Shown piece by piece: positions 6,374 to 33,723 of a stretch of 36,626 bases of DNA. Numbering within the stretch: position 1 is the stretch's first letter; each line of letters starts with the position of its first letter. The notes under the pieces were generated by a model. That model was not told the DNA's origin. It did no database searches and worked only from the letters and a program-made list of their open reading frames with translations. Source of the stretch: Dehalococcoidia bacterium (GTDB taxonomy: Bacteria > Chloroflexota > Dehalococcoidia > Lucifugimonadales > UBA3495); NCBI GenBank assembly GCA_022450395.1, contig JAKUQE010000030.1, positions 1 to 36,626 of the forward strand, in the 5' to 3' direction. Position numbers and translations under genes: made by a program.

Positions 6374-6393
6374 ACGCTCCTAAAGAGGTGTCA

Positions 6394-9333
6394 ATGGCCT
6401 CCACCACGGCAACCCGGGTTCACGGTAAAGAACGAGAAGAATTGGCGGAGATCCTGCGGAAGCGGGTCTCCGGAGAGGTCCGTTTCGACGCCTTCTCCAG
6501 GGTGCTGTACAGCACCGACGCCAGCATCTACCAGATGGAGCCAGTGGGAGTGGTGATTCCCCGGAACGTGGACGATGTGCTGGCGGTGATGGAGGTCGCG
6601 CGAGAGAACAATATCCCGGTGCTTCCCCGGGGCGGCGGGACTAGCCTGGCCGGCCAAACGGTCAACCATGCGATAGTCCTAGACTTCAGCAAATACCTCA
6701 ACCAGGTGCTGGAAACCAACCCCGAAGAAGGCTGGGCAAGGGTCCAACCGGGAATCGTCCTTGACCAGCTCAACCGGCAACTTGCCCCCCATGGGTTGAT
6801 GTACGCCCCCGACCCCACCACTTCCAGCCGCGCCTGTATCGGCGGAGGCATCGGCAACAACACCTGTGGCGCCCATTCGGTGATCTACGGCAAATCTCTG
6901 GATCACATCTTAGAAGTGGACGCCGTACTTACCGACGGCTCCCAAGCCCATTTCAGGACCCTGGAATCCCACGAACTGGAGGCCAAGCTGAGCGGAACTG
7001 GGCTGGAAGCGGACATCTACCGGGGCGTCCGGCGCATCGCCCAGGACAACCTTCAGGAGATCAAGACCCGTTACCCCAACATCATGCGGCGGGTCAGCGG
7101 CTACAACCTGGACGAGTTTTTAAGTGACGACTCCTTCAACATGACGCGCATGGTCGTGGGGTCCGAGGGGACACTCTGCGTGGTCACCGAGGCCAAGGTC
7201 AATCTGGTGCCCCGGCCAACTATGACGGCATTGTCGATCCTCCATTTCGCCGATATCGTGCAAGCCAGCGAAGCCATCGTGAAGGTGCTGCAACACAGTC
7301 CATCCTCGGTGGAGGTAATGGACAACATTCTACTCCAACGGTCCCGGGAGTCCCTTGGCCACTCCGCAGACCTGTCCTTCATCGAAGGCGACCCAGGAGC
7401 ATTGCTGGCAGTGGAGTTTTACGGCGAGTCGGAAGCGGAGTTAATCGCGAAAACCCGCTCCCTGAAAGACGACATCGAGGGCAAGGGCTTGGCCTACGCC
7501 TGCGTCAACGTGCTGGACCAGCCGGGCCAGAACCGGGTTTGGAACCTCAGAAAGGGTGGATTGGGTTTGCTCATGAGCATCCACGGCGACGCCAAACCCC
7601 TGCCCTTTGTTGAGGACACGGCGGTTGATCCGGAGAAACTGGGGCCCTTCGTGCGTAGGTTCGATGAGATCGTGCGCAGCCACGGCACTGAGGCCGCCTA
7701 CTACGGCCATGCCAGCGTGGGTTGTCTGCACATCCGTCCCTTGGTCAGCCTGAAAGACTCGCAAGGCGTGGCCACCATGGTCGCCATCTCCGACGAGATC
7801 AGCGACCTAGTGAAAGAGTTCGGCGGCTCCCTGAGCGGGGAGCACGGCGACGGGATAGTGCGGGGCGTTTACACCGAAAAGATGTTCGGGCCGGAGATAT
7901 ACCAGGCATTCCAGGAACTAAAGAATACTTTCGACCCTCAAGGAATCATGAATCCCGGCAAGATCATCAATTGCCCGCCGATGACCGAGAACCTGCGTTA
8001 CGGCCCAGACTATCAAGCCCATTCCATCACGTCCAAGCTGGACTTTTCCACCGACACCAACTTTGCGGGCGCGGTGGAGATGTGCAACGGCATGGGCGCA
8101 TGCCGCAAGCTGGAGGGCACCATGTGCCCTTCATACATGGCTACCCGCGATGAAGAGCACTCTACCCGGGGCCGGGCCAACCTACTGCGCGCCGCTATGT
8201 CGGGGGCATTGCCGGAAGGTACAATGACCAGCAGACGGCTGTTCGACGCTCTAGACCTTTGCCTTGAGTGCAAAGGATGCAAAGCAGACTGCGACTCCGG
8301 CGTGGACATGGCCAAACTCAAGTACGAGTTCTTGGACCACTACTTCCAAGCCAACGGGCTACCTTTCAGAAACAAGATCTTCGGCCGCATCAACCTGGTT
8401 AGTCAGTGGGGCAGCCGGTTCGCCCCATTGTCCAACTGGGCTTCCCAAAATCCCATCGGCAGATTCTTCGCCGGGCTGGTGCTGGGGATCCATCCACGCC
8501 GGTCACTGCCATCCTTCGCCAGGGAAACCTTGCCCAAGTGGTTTGAACGGCGGGACCAAACCTCCCTTTCCTCCCCCTTTGGTAAAGGGGGACCGAGGGG
8601 GATTTCCGTTACGACAAATACTGTCGTCCTGTTCAACGACACCTTCATGAACTACAACTATCCCCAAGTGGGAAAGGCCGCAGTGGAGCTGCTTGAGGCT
8701 GCCGGGCTCCGAGTCGTATTGGCCAACGGCGGCTGCTGCGGCCGGCCAATGTTATCCAAGGGTATGCTAGACGAGGCGTCGGCCCACGCCCGCGCCAACG
8801 TGGACCTGCTCTACCCCTACGCCGAACAAGGCATACCAATCATCGGTTGTGAACCGAGTTGTCTACTGACCTTCCGCGACGAGTACCCCGAGTTGGTCAA
8901 GAACGACAAGGCCCAAAAGGTGGCCGAGAACAGCTACATGATCGACGAATTTCTGACGATGCTGGCTGAAAAAGGGGAACTGCGACTGGAATTCAAGGAC
9001 CTGGGGAAAAAGATCCTGTTCCACGGCCATTGCCACCAGAAGTCCCTGGTGGGTACCGACTCCTCTTTGGCCGCCTTGCGGCTGCCGCCGGGCAACGAGG
9101 TGGAGTTGATCAACGCCGGTTGCTGCGGCATGGCCGGGTCCTTCGGATTCGAGAAGGAACATTACCAGCTTTCCATGGACATCGGGGCCCAAGCGCTATT
9201 CCCGGCGGTGAACGCCAAGGGTGAGGACTGGGAAGTAGCGGTGATGGGGGTGTCCTGCCGCCAGCAGATCGAGCATGGCACGGGCCGTCCGGCCCGCCAC
9301 TTGGTCGAAGTGCTCCGGGACTCCCTGGCCTGA
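6394..9333 (+). CDS. FAD-linked oxidase fused to Fe-S/CCG domains (GlcD-GlcF type, YdiJ-like)
   Basis: Membrane-associated 2-hydroxyacid dehydrogenase type protein joining GlcD and GlcF functions in one chain of 979 residues. Order: FAD_binding_4 domain (about 35-215; VLPRGGGTSLAGQTV, SRACIGGGIGNNTCGAHS), FAD-oxidase C domain (about 250-530; SGEHGDGIVRGVYTEKMFG), a ferredoxin-like region with CNGMGACRKLEGTMCP and CLECKGCKADCDSGVD, then two CCG domains (NGGCCGRPM with GCEPSC; HGHCHQKSL with NAGCCGMAGSFG). These bind FAD and 4Fe-4S clusters and pass electrons from D-lactate, glycolate or a similar acid to the quinone pool. GTG at 6388 is in frame, but ATG 6394 has AGAGG at better spacing. Residues about 727-738 are encoded by a family B palindrome, in the linker before the first CCG domain; the frame survives. 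Substrate undetermined. Confidence 0.93.
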   Translation: MASTTATRVHGKEREELAEILRKRVSGEVRFDAFSRVLYSTDASIYQMEPVGVVIPRNVDDVLAVMEVARENNIPVLPRGGGTSLAGQTVNHAIVLDFSKYLNQVLETNPEEGWARVQPGIVLDQLNRQLAPHGLMYAPDPTTSSRACIGGGIGNNTCGAHSVIYGKSLDHILEVDAVLTDGSQAHFRTLESHELEAKLSGTGLEADIYRGVRRIAQDNLQEIKTRYPNIMRRVSGYNLDEFLSDDSFNMTRMVVGSEGTLCVVTEAKVNLVPRPTMTALSILHFADIVQASEAIVKVLQHSPSSVEVMDNILLQRSRESLGHSADLSFIEGDPGALLAVEFYGESEAELIAKTRSLKDDIEGKGLAYACVNVLDQPGQNRVWNLRKGGLGLLMSIHGDAKPLPFVEDTAVDPEKLGPFVRRFDEIVRSHGTEAAYYGHASVGCLHIRPLVSLKDSQGVATMVAISDEISDLVKEFGGSLSGEHGDGIVRGVYTEKMFGPEIYQAFQELKNTFDPQGIMNPGKIINCPPMTENLRYGPDYQAHSITSKLDFSTDTNFAGAVEMCNGMGACRKLEGTMCPSYMATRDEEHSTRGRANLLRAAMSGALPEGTMTSRRLFDALDLCLECKGCKADCDSGVDMAKLKYEFLDHYFQANGLPFRNKIFGRINLVSQWGSRFAPLSNWASQNPIGRFFAGLVLGIHPRRSLPSFARETLPKWFERRDQTSLSSPFGKGGPRGISVTTNTVVLFNDTFMNYNYPQVGKAAVELLEAAGLRVVLANGGCCGRPMLSKGMLDEASAHARANVDLLYPYAEQGIPIIGCEPSCLLTFRDEYPELVKNDKAQKVAENSYMIDEFLTMLAEKGELRLEFKDLGKKILFHGHCHQKSLVGTDSSLAALRLPPGNEVELINAGCCGMAGSFGFEKEHYQLSMDIGAQALFPAVNAKGEDWEVAVMGVSCRQQIEHGTGRPARHLVEVLRDSLA
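8572..8607. repeat. Family B palindrome inside the FAD/Fe-S oxidase gene, in frame
   Basis: TCCCCCTTTGGTAAAGGGGG followed by a second G-run (GAGGGGGATTTCC), as in the other family B copies. Here it encodes SPFGKGGPRGIS within the oxidase, between LPKWFERRDQ and the strand TVVLFNDTF. It does not interrupt the frame and falls in a linker rather than a cluster-binding domain. Confidence 0.85.
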
Positions 9334-10416: not shown

Positions 10417-10486
10417 GCCCTCACCCCGACCCCGATTCCATCGGTGTCTCCCCTCTCCCAGTGGGAGAGGGGCCGGGGGTGAGGGC
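10417..10486. repeat. Family C palindrome (GCCCTCACCCC ... GGGGTGAGGGC)
   Basis: The outer arms GCCCTCACCCC and GGGGGTGAGGGC and the inner arms CCCCTCTCCC and GGGAGAGGGG form a nested hairpin of about 70 bases in the gap between SMP-30 and the VOC gene. The same element occurs inside dnaE2 at 31641-31701. Confidence 0.85.
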
Positions 10487-26942: not shown

Positions 26943-26979
26943 GGAAATCCCCCCAACCCCCCTTTACGAAAGGGGGGCT
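26943..26979. repeat. Family B palindrome, left border of the DUF559 cassette
   Basis: GGAAATCCCCCCAACCCCCC followed by TTTACGAAAGGGGGGC. It is the inverted counterpart of the copy at 27396-27432, which ends the DUF559 gene. The copy at 33686-33723 is nearly identical to it. Confidence 0.9.
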
Positions 26980-26999
26980 ATGAAGAGGTTTATTGGGCG

Positions 27000-27440
27000 G
27001 TGCTTAGATACGACCGAAATTTAAAGCAAGTGGCGCGTGGCTTGCGTAACGGGATGACCCGTAGCGAGCAGATGTTGTGGGCGCGATTGCGTGGGAGGCA
27101 GGTTCAGGGTATTCAGTTTTACCAGCAGAAGCCTCTTGGAGTCTACATTTTGGACTTTTACGCGCCCAAAGCAAGGTTGGTGGTGGAGGTGGATGGGCCG
27201 CAACATTTGGAGTTAGAGCATGGGGAGAATGATGCAAGGCGGGATGCGTATCTGACGGGCGCAGGGCTAAAAGTGCTGCGTTTTAGCAACACGCAGATAT
27301 TCCAAGAACTCAATGAGGTAGTGACGCTGATCTCCAAAGCCCTCATCGAACGAACGCACACATCTCCCCATTTCATAGAAGCAACCCTACTGCTTCCCCC
27401 CTTTCGTAAAGGGGGGCCAGGGGGGATTCCCCACCCCTAA
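27000..27440 (+). CDS. DUF559 (Vsr-like PD-(D/E)XK) endonuclease family protein
   Basis: DUF559-domain protein of 146 residues, an endonuclease-fold family related to Vsr and restriction-type nucleases; true substrates are largely unknown. Seen: LRNGMTRSEQMLWARLRGRQ, GIQFYQQKPLGVYILDFYAP with the first acidic residue (Asp in LDFY), and LVVEVDGPQHLE with the second acidic set; KVLRFSNTQIFQELNEVV completes the fold. The start is GTG at 27000 with AGAGG 11 bases upstream. Its last 15 residues (LPPFRKGGPGGIPHP) are encoded by a family B palindrome. The stop ends one base before the imuB ATG, so it is coupled to imuB. No methyltransferase is near, so a Vsr mismatch-repair role is unsupported. A possible mobile passenger. 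Confidence 0.85.
   Translation: MLRYDRNLKQVARGLRNGMTRSEQMLWARLRGRQVQGIQFYQQKPLGVYILDFYAPKARLVVEVDGPQHLELEHGENDARRDAYLTGAGLKVLRFSNTQIFQELNEVVTLISKALIERTHTSPHFIEATLLLPPFRKGGPGGIPHP
27396..27432. repeat. Family B palindrome, right border of the DUF559 cassette, coding the protein tail
   Basis: CCCCCCTTTCGTAAAGGGGG with the second G-run and ATTCCCC. The copy is inverted relative to 26943-26979. It encodes PPFRKGGPGGIP and lies immediately before the DUF559 stop and the imuB start, which has no other ribosome-binding site. Confidence 0.9.
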
Positions 27441-28901: not shown

Positions 28902-28932
28902 AAATCCCCCAACCCCCTTTAACAAAGGGGGC
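28902..28932. repeat. Family B palindrome before dnaE2
   Basis: AAATCCCCCAACCCCCTTTA then ACAAAGGGGGC, the same orientation as 26943-26979. It lies in the 208-base gap between DUF6504 and dnaE2, after a family D copy. The rest of this gap has AAGGAGG at about 28979-28985 but no convincing gene. Confidence 0.85.
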
Positions 28933-29067: not shown

Positions 29068-32000
29068 ATGAACTCAAGCTACGCCGAACTGCATTGCCAC
29101 AGCAACTACTCATTCCAGGAGGGGGCCTCATCGGTTGAGGACCTGCTGTTTCGCGCCAAGGATCTGGGTTACCGGGCTTTGGCCCTTACCGACCACGACA
29201 ATCTGTGCGGGGCCATGCACTTCGCCCAGGTTGCCCGGACCCTGGAGATTCAAACCATCACCGGAGCGGAGATCACCCTCGATGACGGCTCCCACCTCAC
29301 CCTGCTGGCCGAGACGCAGCAAGGGTACAGCAACCTGTGCAACATCATCTCCTACTCCTACATATCCGGCGGCCGCAAAAACCCGGCCTTCGACATCAAG
29401 CACTTGTCCGAGATGGCTCAAGGACTCATTCTGCTTACCGGATGCCGCCAGGGACAGATCCCCAGCCTGGTAACGGAGGGCCGCCACCGGGAGGCCGAGG
29501 ACCTGTTGCGGCAGTACCTAGACTGGTTCGGCACGGCCAACGTCTTCGTGGAACTGCAACACAACCTGGTCCAGGGAGACACTCCACGCATCCGGCGGCT
29601 GGTGGACTTGGCGAATAGATACGGCGTCTCTCCAGTCGCGACCAATAACGTTCACTACCACATCCCGGAACGCCACCGGCTCCAGGACGCCCTGGTGGCC
29701 ATCAGCCACAACCAGAGCCTGGAAGAAACCCACCGGCAGCGCCGGCCCAACCGGCATTTCCACCTCAAGTCTCCGGAGGAAATGGCGGAGCTGTTCCTGG
29801 AGTGCCCCCAGGCCGTTAAAAACACTCTGCGTATCGCCGACCGGTGCGGCTTCGATATCACCAGGGACATGGGGTACCGCTTCCCCGATTACCCGGTGCC
29901 TGAAGGGTTCACTCCCCAAAGCTTCCTGGAACACCTGTGCCTTCAGGCCGCCAAGCGCCGCTACGGCAGCATCACCGATAGAGTGCAAAACCGGCTGGAC
30001 GAAGAGTTGCGTCTGATAAATAGGCACAACCTGTCGGGGTTTTTCCTGATCTACTACGAAATCATACAGATGGCCCGGGAGATCATGATAGAGCTTGGCC
30101 TGAGCGACGTGGAGATACCCTTGGAAGAGCGCCCTCCCGGAAGAGGCCGCGGTTCTTCGGTGTCCATGCTGGTGGGCTACTTGATCGGCTTGTCTCACAT
30201 CGACCCCCTGAAATACAACCTCTCTCTGGAGCGTTTTCTCTCCGACGATATGGGTTCCGTCCCCGATATAGACCTGGACTTTCCCCGGAACATCCGGGAG
30301 GAGTTGATCAAACGCGTGCATGAAAAGTGGGGCTGGGACCACGCCGCTCTCTCCGGAATGATCAGCACCTACAAGATGAAGGGGGCGATACGCGACCTGG
30401 GCAAGGCGTTGGGGTTGCCCAAGCAAGACGTGGACAAGCTAGCCAAGAGGGTGGATGCCCACAGCGCCCGGGAACTAAAGCTGGAGATGCAGGAGTTACC
30501 CGAGTTTCGGGACAAGACCGATGCCCCGGTCTGGCGTGACCTCATCGACCTGGCGGACCAACTGGATGGGTTTCCCAAGTACCTGGCCCAGCACCCCGGC
30601 GGCATGATCATCAGCTCTTCCCCCCTCACCGACATGGTGCCGGTGCAGCAGTCGGCCATCGACGGCCGCTACATCTGCCACTGGGACAAAGACAGCATCG
30701 ACCAGGCCGGTTTCGTGAAGATCGACTTCCTGGCCCTAGGGGCGTTGTCTCAGATGCAAGAATGCCTTCAGCTTATCGAGGAGCGGGACGGTCACTACAT
30801 CGACCTGAGCCGCATCGACTTTGACGACCAGGCAGTCTACGGAATGATGCACCAGGCCGACACCATCGGAATATTCCAGGTGGAATCGGCGGCCCAGATG
30901 CAGACCGTCCCACGCATCAGGCCCATCAACCTCACCGACATGGCCTACGAGGTAGGAGCGGTCCGCCCCGGAGTCGGCGTCAACGACGGGGTCACCCAGT
31001 TCATACAGCGGCGCACCCAAGGCATTCCATGGGACTACGACCACCCACTGGAACAGCGGGCCCTGGAGCGGACCCTGGGGATCATCCTCTTCCAGGATCA
31101 GGTGAACCATGTGGCGCGGGACGTAGCCGGATTCACTCCCCTTGAGGCCGACCAACTCCGCCGGGCCTTCGGCCGCAAGCATAACCAGTCTCTGATCGCT
31201 TTTTACTGGGAAAAGTTCCGTCAAGGGGCTAGCGAGCGGGGCGTTCCCGGAGACGTAGCCGAGAAGATATTCAAAAAATTCAATGGGCAATACATGTTTC
31301 CCGAGTCCCACGCCTTCGCCTTTGGCGCAACAGCCTACCACATGGCCTGGCTCAAGTACTACCATCCGTTGGAGTTCTTTGTCGCCATCTTCAACCAGCA
31401 ACCCATGGGGTTCTACAACACAGAGACTCTAAAAGAGGACGCTAAGCGGCACGGCATCACCGTAATCAACCCCGACATCAACCTCAGCATGGAAAAGTGC
31501 ACCATCGTGAGTGGTGGACGACCCACCTTTCATCCCCCCTTCGTAAGGGAGGAATTTGAGAGGTATACAGATGGCGAAAGGGGAGAGCCTAATAGCCCCC
31601 CTTTCGTAAAGGGGGGTTGGGGGGATTTCCGGCCCGTCAAGCCCTCACCCCGGCCTTCGGCCTCCCCTCTCCCTGAGGGAGAGGGGGTAGGGGGTGAGGG
31701 CAGCGATGCCCTCCTCTTAGGCTTTCTCTACGTGAAAGGCGTGGGAGCAGCTGCAGCGTCCTCCATAGTCCAGACAAGAGACAGCGGCGGGCCGTTCAGC
31801 AACCTGGGCGACGCGATGGAACGGACCGGGTTGCAGCGGGAAGCTCTTGAGAACCTAGTAGCCGCCGGGGCCTTCGACTCCCTGACTCCAGACCGGCGGA
31901 ATGCGTTGTGGGAGGTGGGGTTGCGTTACCGCCCACATGGCTATCAACAAGCGCTGCCTCTTCCCGTTGAGCAGGACATGGCCGAACTGCCCAAGCAGAC

Positions 32001-32400
32001 CGAATGGGAAATCATGATGGACGAATACCGCACCATGCGGCTTCATCCCAAGGGACACTTGATGACCATGCTGCGGCCTTACCTGGGCCAGGATGTGTTA
32101 AGCAGCCAGGACCTTCTGGGGCGGGCCGATGGCGAAGTGGTGACCGTGGCCGGCATGGTGATTCGCCGGCAACGCCCCCTGTCCAAGGCCGTGTTTCTCA
32201 CCCTGGAAGACGAGTTTGGGCACATCCCCATCGTGGTATGGCCCCAGGCTTTCAAGAAACACCGCATGGACATAAAGGAGCCGGTGCTGATAATCCGAGG
32301 CCAGGTTTCCCGCCGTGAAGGGACCATGAACATAATAGCCCAGCACATTCGAGGCACCCAGGGCTTGCCCCACATGCCCAAGGCCCGTAGCTGGCAATAG
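29068..32400 (+). CDS. dnaE2: DnaE2, error-prone DNA polymerase III alpha subunit
   Basis: Catalytic polymerase of the ImuB-DnaE2 mutasome, used for translesion synthesis and damage-induced mutation. The 1110 residues carry a PHP domain (AELHCHSNYSF at 6-16, ALTDHDN at 39-45, TGCRQGQ, NNVHYH), the palm with catalytic acids PDIDLDFPRNIREELI near residue 399, fingers and thumb, a helix-hairpin-helix (LYVKGVGAAAASSI) and a C-terminal OB fold (VVTVAGMVIRRQRPLSKAVF). PHP and DnaE2-type wording fit the error-prone branch. Residues about 818-879 are an extra segment encoded by palindromic repeats, in frame. The start ATG 29068 has no evident ribosome-binding site; a stop lies in frame upstream. Probable SOS control through the operon promoter. 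Confidence 0.94.
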   Translation: MNSSYAELHCHSNYSFQEGASSVEDLLFRAKDLGYRALALTDHDNLCGAMHFAQVARTLEIQTITGAEITLDDGSHLTLLAETQQGYSNLCNIISYSYISGGRKNPAFDIKHLSEMAQGLILLTGCRQGQIPSLVTEGRHREAEDLLRQYLDWFGTANVFVELQHNLVQGDTPRIRRLVDLANRYGVSPVATNNVHYHIPERHRLQDALVAISHNQSLEETHRQRRPNRHFHLKSPEEMAELFLECPQAVKNTLRIADRCGFDITRDMGYRFPDYPVPEGFTPQSFLEHLCLQAAKRRYGSITDRVQNRLDEELRLINRHNLSGFFLIYYEIIQMAREIMIELGLSDVEIPLEERPPGRGRGSSVSMLVGYLIGLSHIDPLKYNLSLERFLSDDMGSVPDIDLDFPRNIREELIKRVHEKWGWDHAALSGMISTYKMKGAIRDLGKALGLPKQDVDKLAKRVDAHSARELKLEMQELPEFRDKTDAPVWRDLIDLADQLDGFPKYLAQHPGGMIISSSPLTDMVPVQQSAIDGRYICHWDKDSIDQAGFVKIDFLALGALSQMQECLQLIEERDGHYIDLSRIDFDDQAVYGMMHQADTIGIFQVESAAQMQTVPRIRPINLTDMAYEVGAVRPGVGVNDGVTQFIQRRTQGIPWDYDHPLEQRALERTLGIILFQDQVNHVARDVAGFTPLEADQLRRAFGRKHNQSLIAFYWEKFRQGASERGVPGDVAEKIFKKFNGQYMFPESHAFAFGATAYHMAWLKYYHPLEFFVAIFNQQPMGFYNTETLKEDAKRHGITVINPDINLSMEKCTIVSGGRPTFHPPFVREEFERYTDGERGEPNSPPFVKGGWGDFRPVKPSPRPSASPLPEGEGVGGEGSDALLLGFLYVKGVGAAAASSIVQTRDSGGPFSNLGDAMERTGLQREALENLVAAGAFDSLTPDRRNALWEVGLRYRPHGYQQALPLPVEQDMAELPKQTEWEIMMDEYRTMRLHPKGHLMTMLRPYLGQDVLSSQDLLGRADGEVVTVAGMVIRRQRPLSKAVFLTLEDEFGHIPIVVWPQAFKKHRMDIKEPVLIIRGQVSRREGTMNIIAQHIRGTQGLPHMPKARSWQ
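31533..31558. repeat. Degenerate family B palindrome inside dnaE2, in frame
   Basis: TCCCCCCTTCGTAAGGGAGG then AATTTG, encoding HPPFVREEFE. Shorter than the other copies and lacking the long second G-run; probably an older insertion than the copy at 31595. Confidence 0.7.
31595..31630. repeat. Family B palindrome inside dnaE2, in frame
   Basis: GCCCCCCTTTCGTAAAGGGG followed by GGTTGGGGGGATTTCC; it encodes SPPFVKGGWGDF. The frame differs from that of the DUF559 and oxidase copies, yet is also open. Confidence 0.9.
31641..31701. repeat. Family C palindrome inside dnaE2, in frame
   Basis: GCCCTCACCCCGGCCTTCGG, inner arms CCCCTCTCCC / GGGAGAGGGG and closing GGGGTGAGGGC, as in the copy at 10417-10486. 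It encodes PSPRPSASPLPEGEGVGGEG and follows a family B copy by ten bases. Confidence 0.9.
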
Positions 32401-33685: not shown

Positions 33686-33723
33686 GGGGAAATCCCCCCA
33701 ACCCCCCTTTACGAAAGGGGGGC
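33686..33723. repeat. Family B palindrome after the LLM gene
   Basis: GGGGAAATCCCCCCAACCCC then CCTTTACGAAAGGGGGGC, almost identical to the copy at 26943-26979 and in the same orientation. It lies 24 bases after the LLM stop and could shape the 3' end of that transcript. Confidence 0.9.

Follow-up and report, generated by a model that had tools for sequence, protein, structure and literature searches.

DUF559 nucleases as the probable spreading enzymes of the potential intrastrand-triplex (BoxC/PIT/TM) palindromes that bracket their genes

In this study, we found that DUF559 nuclease genes from many bacterial phyla lie between inverted copies of a palindrome with BoxC/PIT/TM architecture, and that DUF559 is probably the long-missing enzyme by which such triplex-type palindromes are spread. 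E. coli has been known to harbour BoxC/PIT elements since the 1990s, and since 2015 the count has stood at more than 260 genomes, with no candidate for their spread (PMC4666352). The argument draws on the association of gene and palindrome, their cognate co-variation, palindrome dose, duplicated units that end at palindromes, the presence or absence of palindrome pairs at corresponding sites, and the fold of the protein. Association between DUF559 and the palindromes is not causation; we infer from it that the nuclease causes the spread by acting on the palindromes themselves, and we consider it likely that DUF559 spreads its cognate palindromes.

The window, the whole stretch of 36,626 nucleotides analysed here, is one contig of the 4.0-Mb draft genome of a Dehalococcoidia bacterium, and its features are listed in Table 1. 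The initial annotation had described a DUF559 gene between inverted copies of one palindrome (26943-26979 and 27396-27432), the right copy encoding the protein's own tail; both copies are present, and the tail PPFVKGGQGGF is the translation of the right one. The gene is also less GC-rich in codon use than imuB, as had been said (GC3 0.61 vs 0.77), and the five other sites given for the palindrome comprise four full copies (8572, 28903, 31596, 33692) and one degenerate copy (31534). That annotation had overlooked a third arm with mirror symmetry (left, AATCCCCCC; right, GGGGGGATT), which gives a unit of 26946-27428, as well as the position of some copies inside protein-coding genes, two more DUF559 genes in the genome with other palindrome families as flanks, and the membership of the palindromes in the known BoxC/PIT class. 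From this anatomy, and from duplicated units elsewhere whose similarity stops at the palindromes, palindrome, gene and inverted palindrome are presumed to form one unit.

Table 1. Coordinates of the DUF559 unit and the other palindromes in the window, and of a repeat in genome G005 (positions in the named loci)
Feature	Position	Strand	Remarks
Left triplex-type palindrome, B type	26946..26977	-	Third arm AATCCCCCC 26946-26954; stem CCCCCCTTT/AAAGGGGGG 26957-26977; 9/9 triads obey mirror rule
Right triplex-type palindrome, B type	27396..27428	+	Inverted vs left copy; stem 27396-27416, linker CCA, third arm GGGGGGATT 27420-27428; 9/9 triads
DUF559 nuclease gene	27000..27440	+	GTG start, 146 aa; PF04480 E 3.9e-32
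DUF559 nuclease domain	~27018-27344		Tail after domain encoded by right palindrome
Presumed unit, palindrome - DUF559 gene - inverted palindrome	26946..27428	.	483 bp
B-type palindrome + third arm	8572..8604	+	In frame within FAD-linked oxidase gene (6388-9333)
BoxC-type palindrome + third arm	10450..10485	+	Downstream end, region around SMP-30-like gene; 10/10 triads
B-type palindrome + third arm	28903..28931	-	Between imuB and dnaE2
Degenerate palindrome CCCCCCTTCGTAAGGGAGG	31534..31552	.	Within dnaE2-like gene
B-type palindrome + third arm	31596..31627	+	In frame within dnaE2-like gene
BoxC-type palindrome + third arm	31664..31700	+	In frame, dnaE2-like gene; 10/10 triads
B-type palindrome + third arm	33692..33722	-	Intergenic
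G005 1.3-kb repeat	L032 171-1492; L055 150-1423 and 3251-4558

The palindromes are far too frequent for the composition of the window: the 19-base pattern has 13 strand matches with 0.04 expected, and no shuffle attains 13. Full copies fit a mirror third arm perfectly, e.g., AAAGGGGGG followed by GGGGGGATT, with 8-10 of 8-10 triads in agreement. Palindromes inside coding genes are translated: the copy in the FAD-linked oxidase gene reads SSPFGKGGPRGI, and the dnaE2-like polymerase gene (29068-32400), when compared with Thermus PolIII alpha, shows an in-frame insertion of some 64 residues (window 31489-31707), which consists of three palindromes translated as ...SPPFVKGGWGDF...SPRPSASPLPEGEGVGGEG. 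Protein stretches like SPPFVKGGWGDF or SPLPEGEGVGGEG are best read as translated mobile palindromes, which is a warning for annotation.

The third arm recurs widely at DUF559 loci. Under a mirror rule in which G stands opposite G and A or T opposite A, a G-rich third arm mirroring the second arm was found at 70% of 230 flank hairpins and at 0/230 in shuffled flanks; this is the result of a two-strand test, used in place of a one-strand test that gave a weak result. The linker before the third arm was 3 nt long in 128 of 161 cases (examples are CTG, TTA, and CCG), a mirror model was preferred to a direct copy by 124 to 13 (p 7e-24), and the two third arms of a locus were in mirror orientation in 39/48. 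Judged by their sequence, the palindromes that flank DUF559 are potential intrastrand-triplex elements of BoxC/PIT/TM architecture. The third block mirrors the second both in most of the flank hairpins and in the window copies, and the dispersed copies are numerous, with 58 stems of the window's B type in the whole genome (reversed control pattern, 0) and 81 full elements in Halopseudomonas xiamenensis. Holder et al. (2015) found for the E. coli motif that a triplex is formed in vitro, that strains differ in it and that inverted pairs of it occur, and they reported no mobility activities near BoxC/PIT/TM elements (PMC4666352). The direction of the third arm, inward at most loci outside Chloroflexota and either outward or inward within Chloroflexota, is a point against spread by DUF559.

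The flanks described for one gene by the initial annotation recur at DUF559 genes elsewhere and are locus-specific in sequence. All three DUF559 genes of the genome are flanked on both sides by palindromes, each gene by a family of its own, and at loci L016 and L018 the palindromes on either side of the gene are CCCCTCTCCC/GGGAGAGGGG and of the CCCCCCTTCGTAAGGGGGG type. Two further sets of loci were compared, one of about 90 DUF559 loci from 301 genomes of Chloroflexota and one of 80 loci found by scanning species of bacteria and archaea, where Proteobacteria predominate beside Planctomycetes, Nitrospirae, Desulfobacterota, Bipolaricaulota, Melainabacteria, Brachyspira, and others. With 300 bases taken on each side, a hairpin defined by an effective arm of at least 8 (thresholds chosen by us) and slid positions as controls, hairpins on both sides were present at 75% of 87 standalone DUF559 genes of Chloroflexota (6% of 183 control positions) and at 81% of 64 genes of the second set (7% of 955 controls). 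Inverted similarity between the left and right flanks was found at 57% of the same 87 genes vs 1% of controls, and at 84% of the 64 genes vs 1.6% of the 955 controls. In alignments, the palindrome sequence varies among loci and matches within each locus. About a quarter of the Chloroflexota genes have no hairpins on both sides, which we count against spread by DUF559.

The combined flank measure was positive for 0/7 UvrC-type GIY-YIG genes and for 11% of 19 standalone GIY-YIG genes, the latter being an imperfect negative control with inverted-repeat flanks of other kinds at 5/19. Small genes often end close to hairpins, so that the flanking palindromes might be taken for ordinary terminators or chance hairpins; however, neither the control positions nor the UvrC-type GIY-YIG genes have matched hairpins on both sides, the mirror third arm vanishes on shuffling, and near-identical copies of the elements are spread genome-wide. 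This explanation is next to impossible, and we regard chance hairpins and terminators as ruled out by the slid-window controls and the UvrC-type genes. As a separate observation, some standalone GIY-YIG genes of Chloroflexota (L363, L348, L362, L364, and L365) have inverted repeats or other palindromes as flanks (ACCCCGGCTTTCGCCGGGGT / ATTCCGGCGAAAGCCGGAAT at L363 is one example), which hints at a parallel pairing of nuclease and palindrome. In phages, DUF559 was found in 1 of 50,697 records with the query used, that is, in almost none.

The predicted structure of the DUF559 protein (pLDDT 85) matched NGO0050 of Neisseria gonorrhoeae (3hrl) with Z 16.5, the EDxHD homing endonuclease I-Bth0305I (3r3p) with Z 11.8 over 96 residues, and Vsr (1cw0) with Z 9.6 over 100 residues, and residues E23, D52, E63, D65, H69, and D78 are invariant among 38 sequences. 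The model thus points to an EDxHD/Vsr-type PD-(D/E)XK fold and not to Y1 HUH. From its sequence, YcjD had already been assigned to the PD-(D/E)XK superfamily, close to Vsr (PMC1189080), and a DUF559 intein gene to the EDxHD family (PMC9403480). In the literature searched, which left preprints and most subscription journals outside, no paper linked DUF559 or YcjD to these palindromes. PADLOC matched the nuclease core only weakly, to DpdF and to a methyl-directed restriction enzyme, and we do not read these matches as a role in defence.

The closeness of the predicted fold to Vsr also suits a different explanation, in which DUF559 is a host Vsr-like repair enzyme for mismatches or breaks at triplex-prone palindromes, retained where these are many and adjacent to them by local selection or chance. 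The DUF559 protein VsrA of Caulobacter, linked to DNA damage and reported to act with a solitary cytosine methyltransferase, has been read as Vsr-like repair (PMC12907096); that report agrees with a host function and counts against spread by DUF559. Host repair, however, does not require that three quarters of the genes be bracketed by inverted copies or that several paralogues each have a palindrome of their own, and a duplicated unit ending at palindromes is not expected from it. We consider host repair improbable.

Nuclease and palindrome show cognate co-variation. In genomes with several DUF559 genes, the left flank best matched its own right flank in 34/52 cases. The similarity of proteins followed that of their elements between genomes, with Spearman coefficients of 0.16 for Chloroflexota and 0.42 for the other phyla that both reached the floor of the permutation test, and between paralogues with a coefficient of 0.64; phylogeny is removed only in part by the permutation and Mantel tests of this study. 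Three Halopseudomonas species carry the window's QFYxQ subtype of DUF559; the BoxC pattern is absent from them, and AATCCCCCC-type elements resembling those of the window lie beside the gene. The third arm GGGGGATT was found at 8/8 QFYxQ genes and at 5/160 others, that arm or a matching stem being counted (p 1e-10), and BoxC stems at 0/8 and 86/160, respectively. This pairing of QFYxQ with GGGGGATT spans Chloroflexota and Gammaproteobacteria, and one further QFYxQ locus, L321, has the related arm GAGGGATT. Element type follows nuclease subtype across phyla.

Palindrome numbers also differ between genomes with and without the nuclease. As the initial annotation had expected if the two are linked, there are many fewer palindromes without DUF559 in Chloroflexota, Halopseudomonas, and E. 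coli, in pattern counts that cover two palindrome types only and draft genomes of which some are contaminated. Among the same 301 Chloroflexota genomes, the mean number of BoxC stems per Mb was 10.3 in the 98 with a strong DUF559 gene vs 1.3 in the 159 without (p 2.6e-20), and with labels permuted within families p was 0.0002, the floor of the test. The stem still occurs in 31% of the Chloroflexota genomes without DUF559, and in Halopseudomonas (37 genomes; mean copies 19.9 with DUF559 vs 2.1 without, p 0.005), the genomes G329 and G343 have 28 and 10 full elements with no nuclease detected; both observations speak against spread by DUF559. The elements in nuclease-free genomes could be relics, or be driven by a gene that was missed.

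In E. coli, ycjD, a DUF559 gene, is present in 3,364 of 5,426 genomes. BoxC places were counted with one combined query against the E. coli collection; over 60 evenly sampled records the medians were 16 with ycjD vs 4 without (p 8e-10), these genomes not being independent because ycjD follows phylogroups, namely A, B1, and C (PMC12817139). E. coli K-12, with ycjD and about 23 BoxC copies, is an immediate laboratory test system; BoxC sequence lies at the 3' end of its ycjD, with an intact BoxC copy just downstream. Where E. coli lacks ycjD, the eefRABC efflux operon was seen at the same sapF-fabI site (L408, L409), in agreement with a published report (PMC12817139).

Signs of movement were found for both units and gene-free pairs. 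Genome G111 has two copies of a DUF559 unit of about 590 bp, 93% identical and at unrelated sites, which resemble each other as far as the outer ends of the inverted repeats and no further, and genome G168 has a similar pair of units. At one orthologous site, the gene and its palindromes are present in two species, and a third species has a 90-base spacer in their place. The elements of Halopseudomonas xiamenensis are largely arranged in inverted pairs whose third arms face outward. Gene-free pairs number in the tens and have variable spacers of 49-251 bases; inverted terminal repeats around a gene-free spacer and dispersed copies, as in MITE-like elements, are both seen in Halopseudomonas. 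One Halopseudomonas pair is missing from a sister species with intact flanks, where AGCT-CCCCCTAACC forms a clean empty site; the occupied site has CCCCCT on both sides, equal to the element's own end, which could reflect either duplication of the target or use of a C-run that happened to match. Divergence between the species limited the reading of exact empty-site junctions to 1 of about 25 Halopseudomonas sites, and at the other sites presence or absence was seen without base-level resolution. Across the Halopseudomonas pairs (L227-L266), many of the widely varying spacers share short pieces, e.g., GCACAA near the inner element ends, and a single orientation is common to all simple pairs.

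The DUF559 gene of Halopseudomonas xiamenensis is flanked by two complete gene-free pairs, one on each side, as if it had been inserted or recombined there. This arrangement bears on the main rival explanation, in which the palindromes are landing sites that arise and spread otherwise, and DUF559, as a free-standing homing-type gene, inserts itself into those already present or between them. The homing-endonuclease fold and the existence of palindromes without a nuclease likewise agree with landing sites. Landing sites explain the flanks, but not the dose or the cognate relations: insertion by itself does not account for the higher copy numbers that accompany the nuclease inside families, inside one genus and inside E. 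coli, nor for the covariation of element type and nuclease subtype across phyla, unless the nuclease maintains or multiplies its target. We judge landing sites unlikely.

Genome G005 carries a 1.3-kb repeat, 98-99% identical and insertion-sequence-like, beside DUF559 copies (Table 1), and repeats in Legionella hold a transposase with a DUF559 gene (PMC12308824). Both would suit gene and palindromes being passengers of another transposase that acts in trans, e.g., that of an element of the IS200/IS605-like or some other kind. However, the gene that recurs between the palindromes at nearly all loci is DUF559 itself, and element type covaries with DUF559; a passenger role seems very improbable.

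Considering all the above, we propose a plausible model in which DUF559 proteins would be companion nucleases of potential intrastrand-triplex palindromes (BoxC/PIT/TM), with palindrome, nuclease gene, and inverted palindrome as the autonomous unit. The nuclease would recognise its own palindrome type, probably via stem bases and third arm, and would cut or nick DNA, whereupon repair would copy the palindrome-bounded segment to new places; gene-free inverted pairs and single palindromes may be non-autonomous derivatives moved in trans. For a specific cut-and-copy (homing-like) route the chances are somewhat below even, and we put it forward tentatively. The suggestion of the initial annotation that DUF559 is the mobilising enzyme gains support from the comparisons of flanks and counts, and it is still one that we infer. 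Furthermore, we lean slightly towards DUF559 and triplex palindromes being a separate, phylum-spanning class of minimal mobile elements, with a unit of about 0.5 kb, in which a PD-(D/E)XK (EDxHD-type) nuclease recognises and spreads a triplex-type palindrome, gene-free pairs are parasites, and E. coli YcjD/BoxC is a member. The link gives a testable function to both partners, a widespread nuclease family of hitherto obscure role and elements without known spread.

Several known systems can be compared with the DUF559 units. BoxC/PIT/TM elements share the order of arm, loop, arm, short linker, and mirrored purine third arm, as well as dispersed copies, inverted pairs, and instability between strains, and the second palindrome family of the window is BoxC-like; in contrast, no companion enzyme was known for them before, and the main family of the window, with stem CCCCCCTTT and third arm GGGGGGATT, is another sequence type, tied to a distinct DUF559 subtype. 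Rickettsia palindromic elements are likewise tolerated in frame inside protein-coding genes, a likeness to the dnaE2 copies of the window, and presumably belong to a different sequence class. NGO0050 (PDB 3hrl) and E. coli YcjD belong to the family of the window protein, and copies of triplex-type palindromes adjoin both genes, although the two proteins were deposited or annotated without a function. Besides NGO0050, EDxHD homing endonucleases and Vsr are the closest solved folds, but at the loci examined the DUF559 units lie outside introns and inteins, with dispersed palindromes on either side.

The closest likeness in organisation is to REP/REPIN-RAYT (TnpA-REP), where a small nuclease gene also lies between inverted palindromes, several palindrome types have an enzyme each, and gene-free inverted pairs are non-autonomous units (PMC3116915); an enzyme gene flanked by its own palindromes and gene-free inverted pairs were both found here. 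However, RAYT is a Y1 HUH enzyme, whereas DUF559 (Pfam DUF559) has a predicted EDxHD/Vsr-type PD-(D/E)XK fold; a GTAG or CGTC tag marks REP palindromes (PMC3733652), whereas the DUF559 elements have a mirrored third arm and show GTAG only as a rare linker; and RAYTs are described as single-copy and not self-mobile, whereas DUF559 units were found duplicated. Because enzyme fold and palindrome tag both fail, the DUF559 system is not a member of REP/RAYT, and the resemblance is one of working plan rather than of membership, which fits the earlier description of an analogous but unrelated system. If true, it would be a second nuclease-palindrome partnership beside REP/RAYT, with an unrelated enzyme and a different DNA structure.
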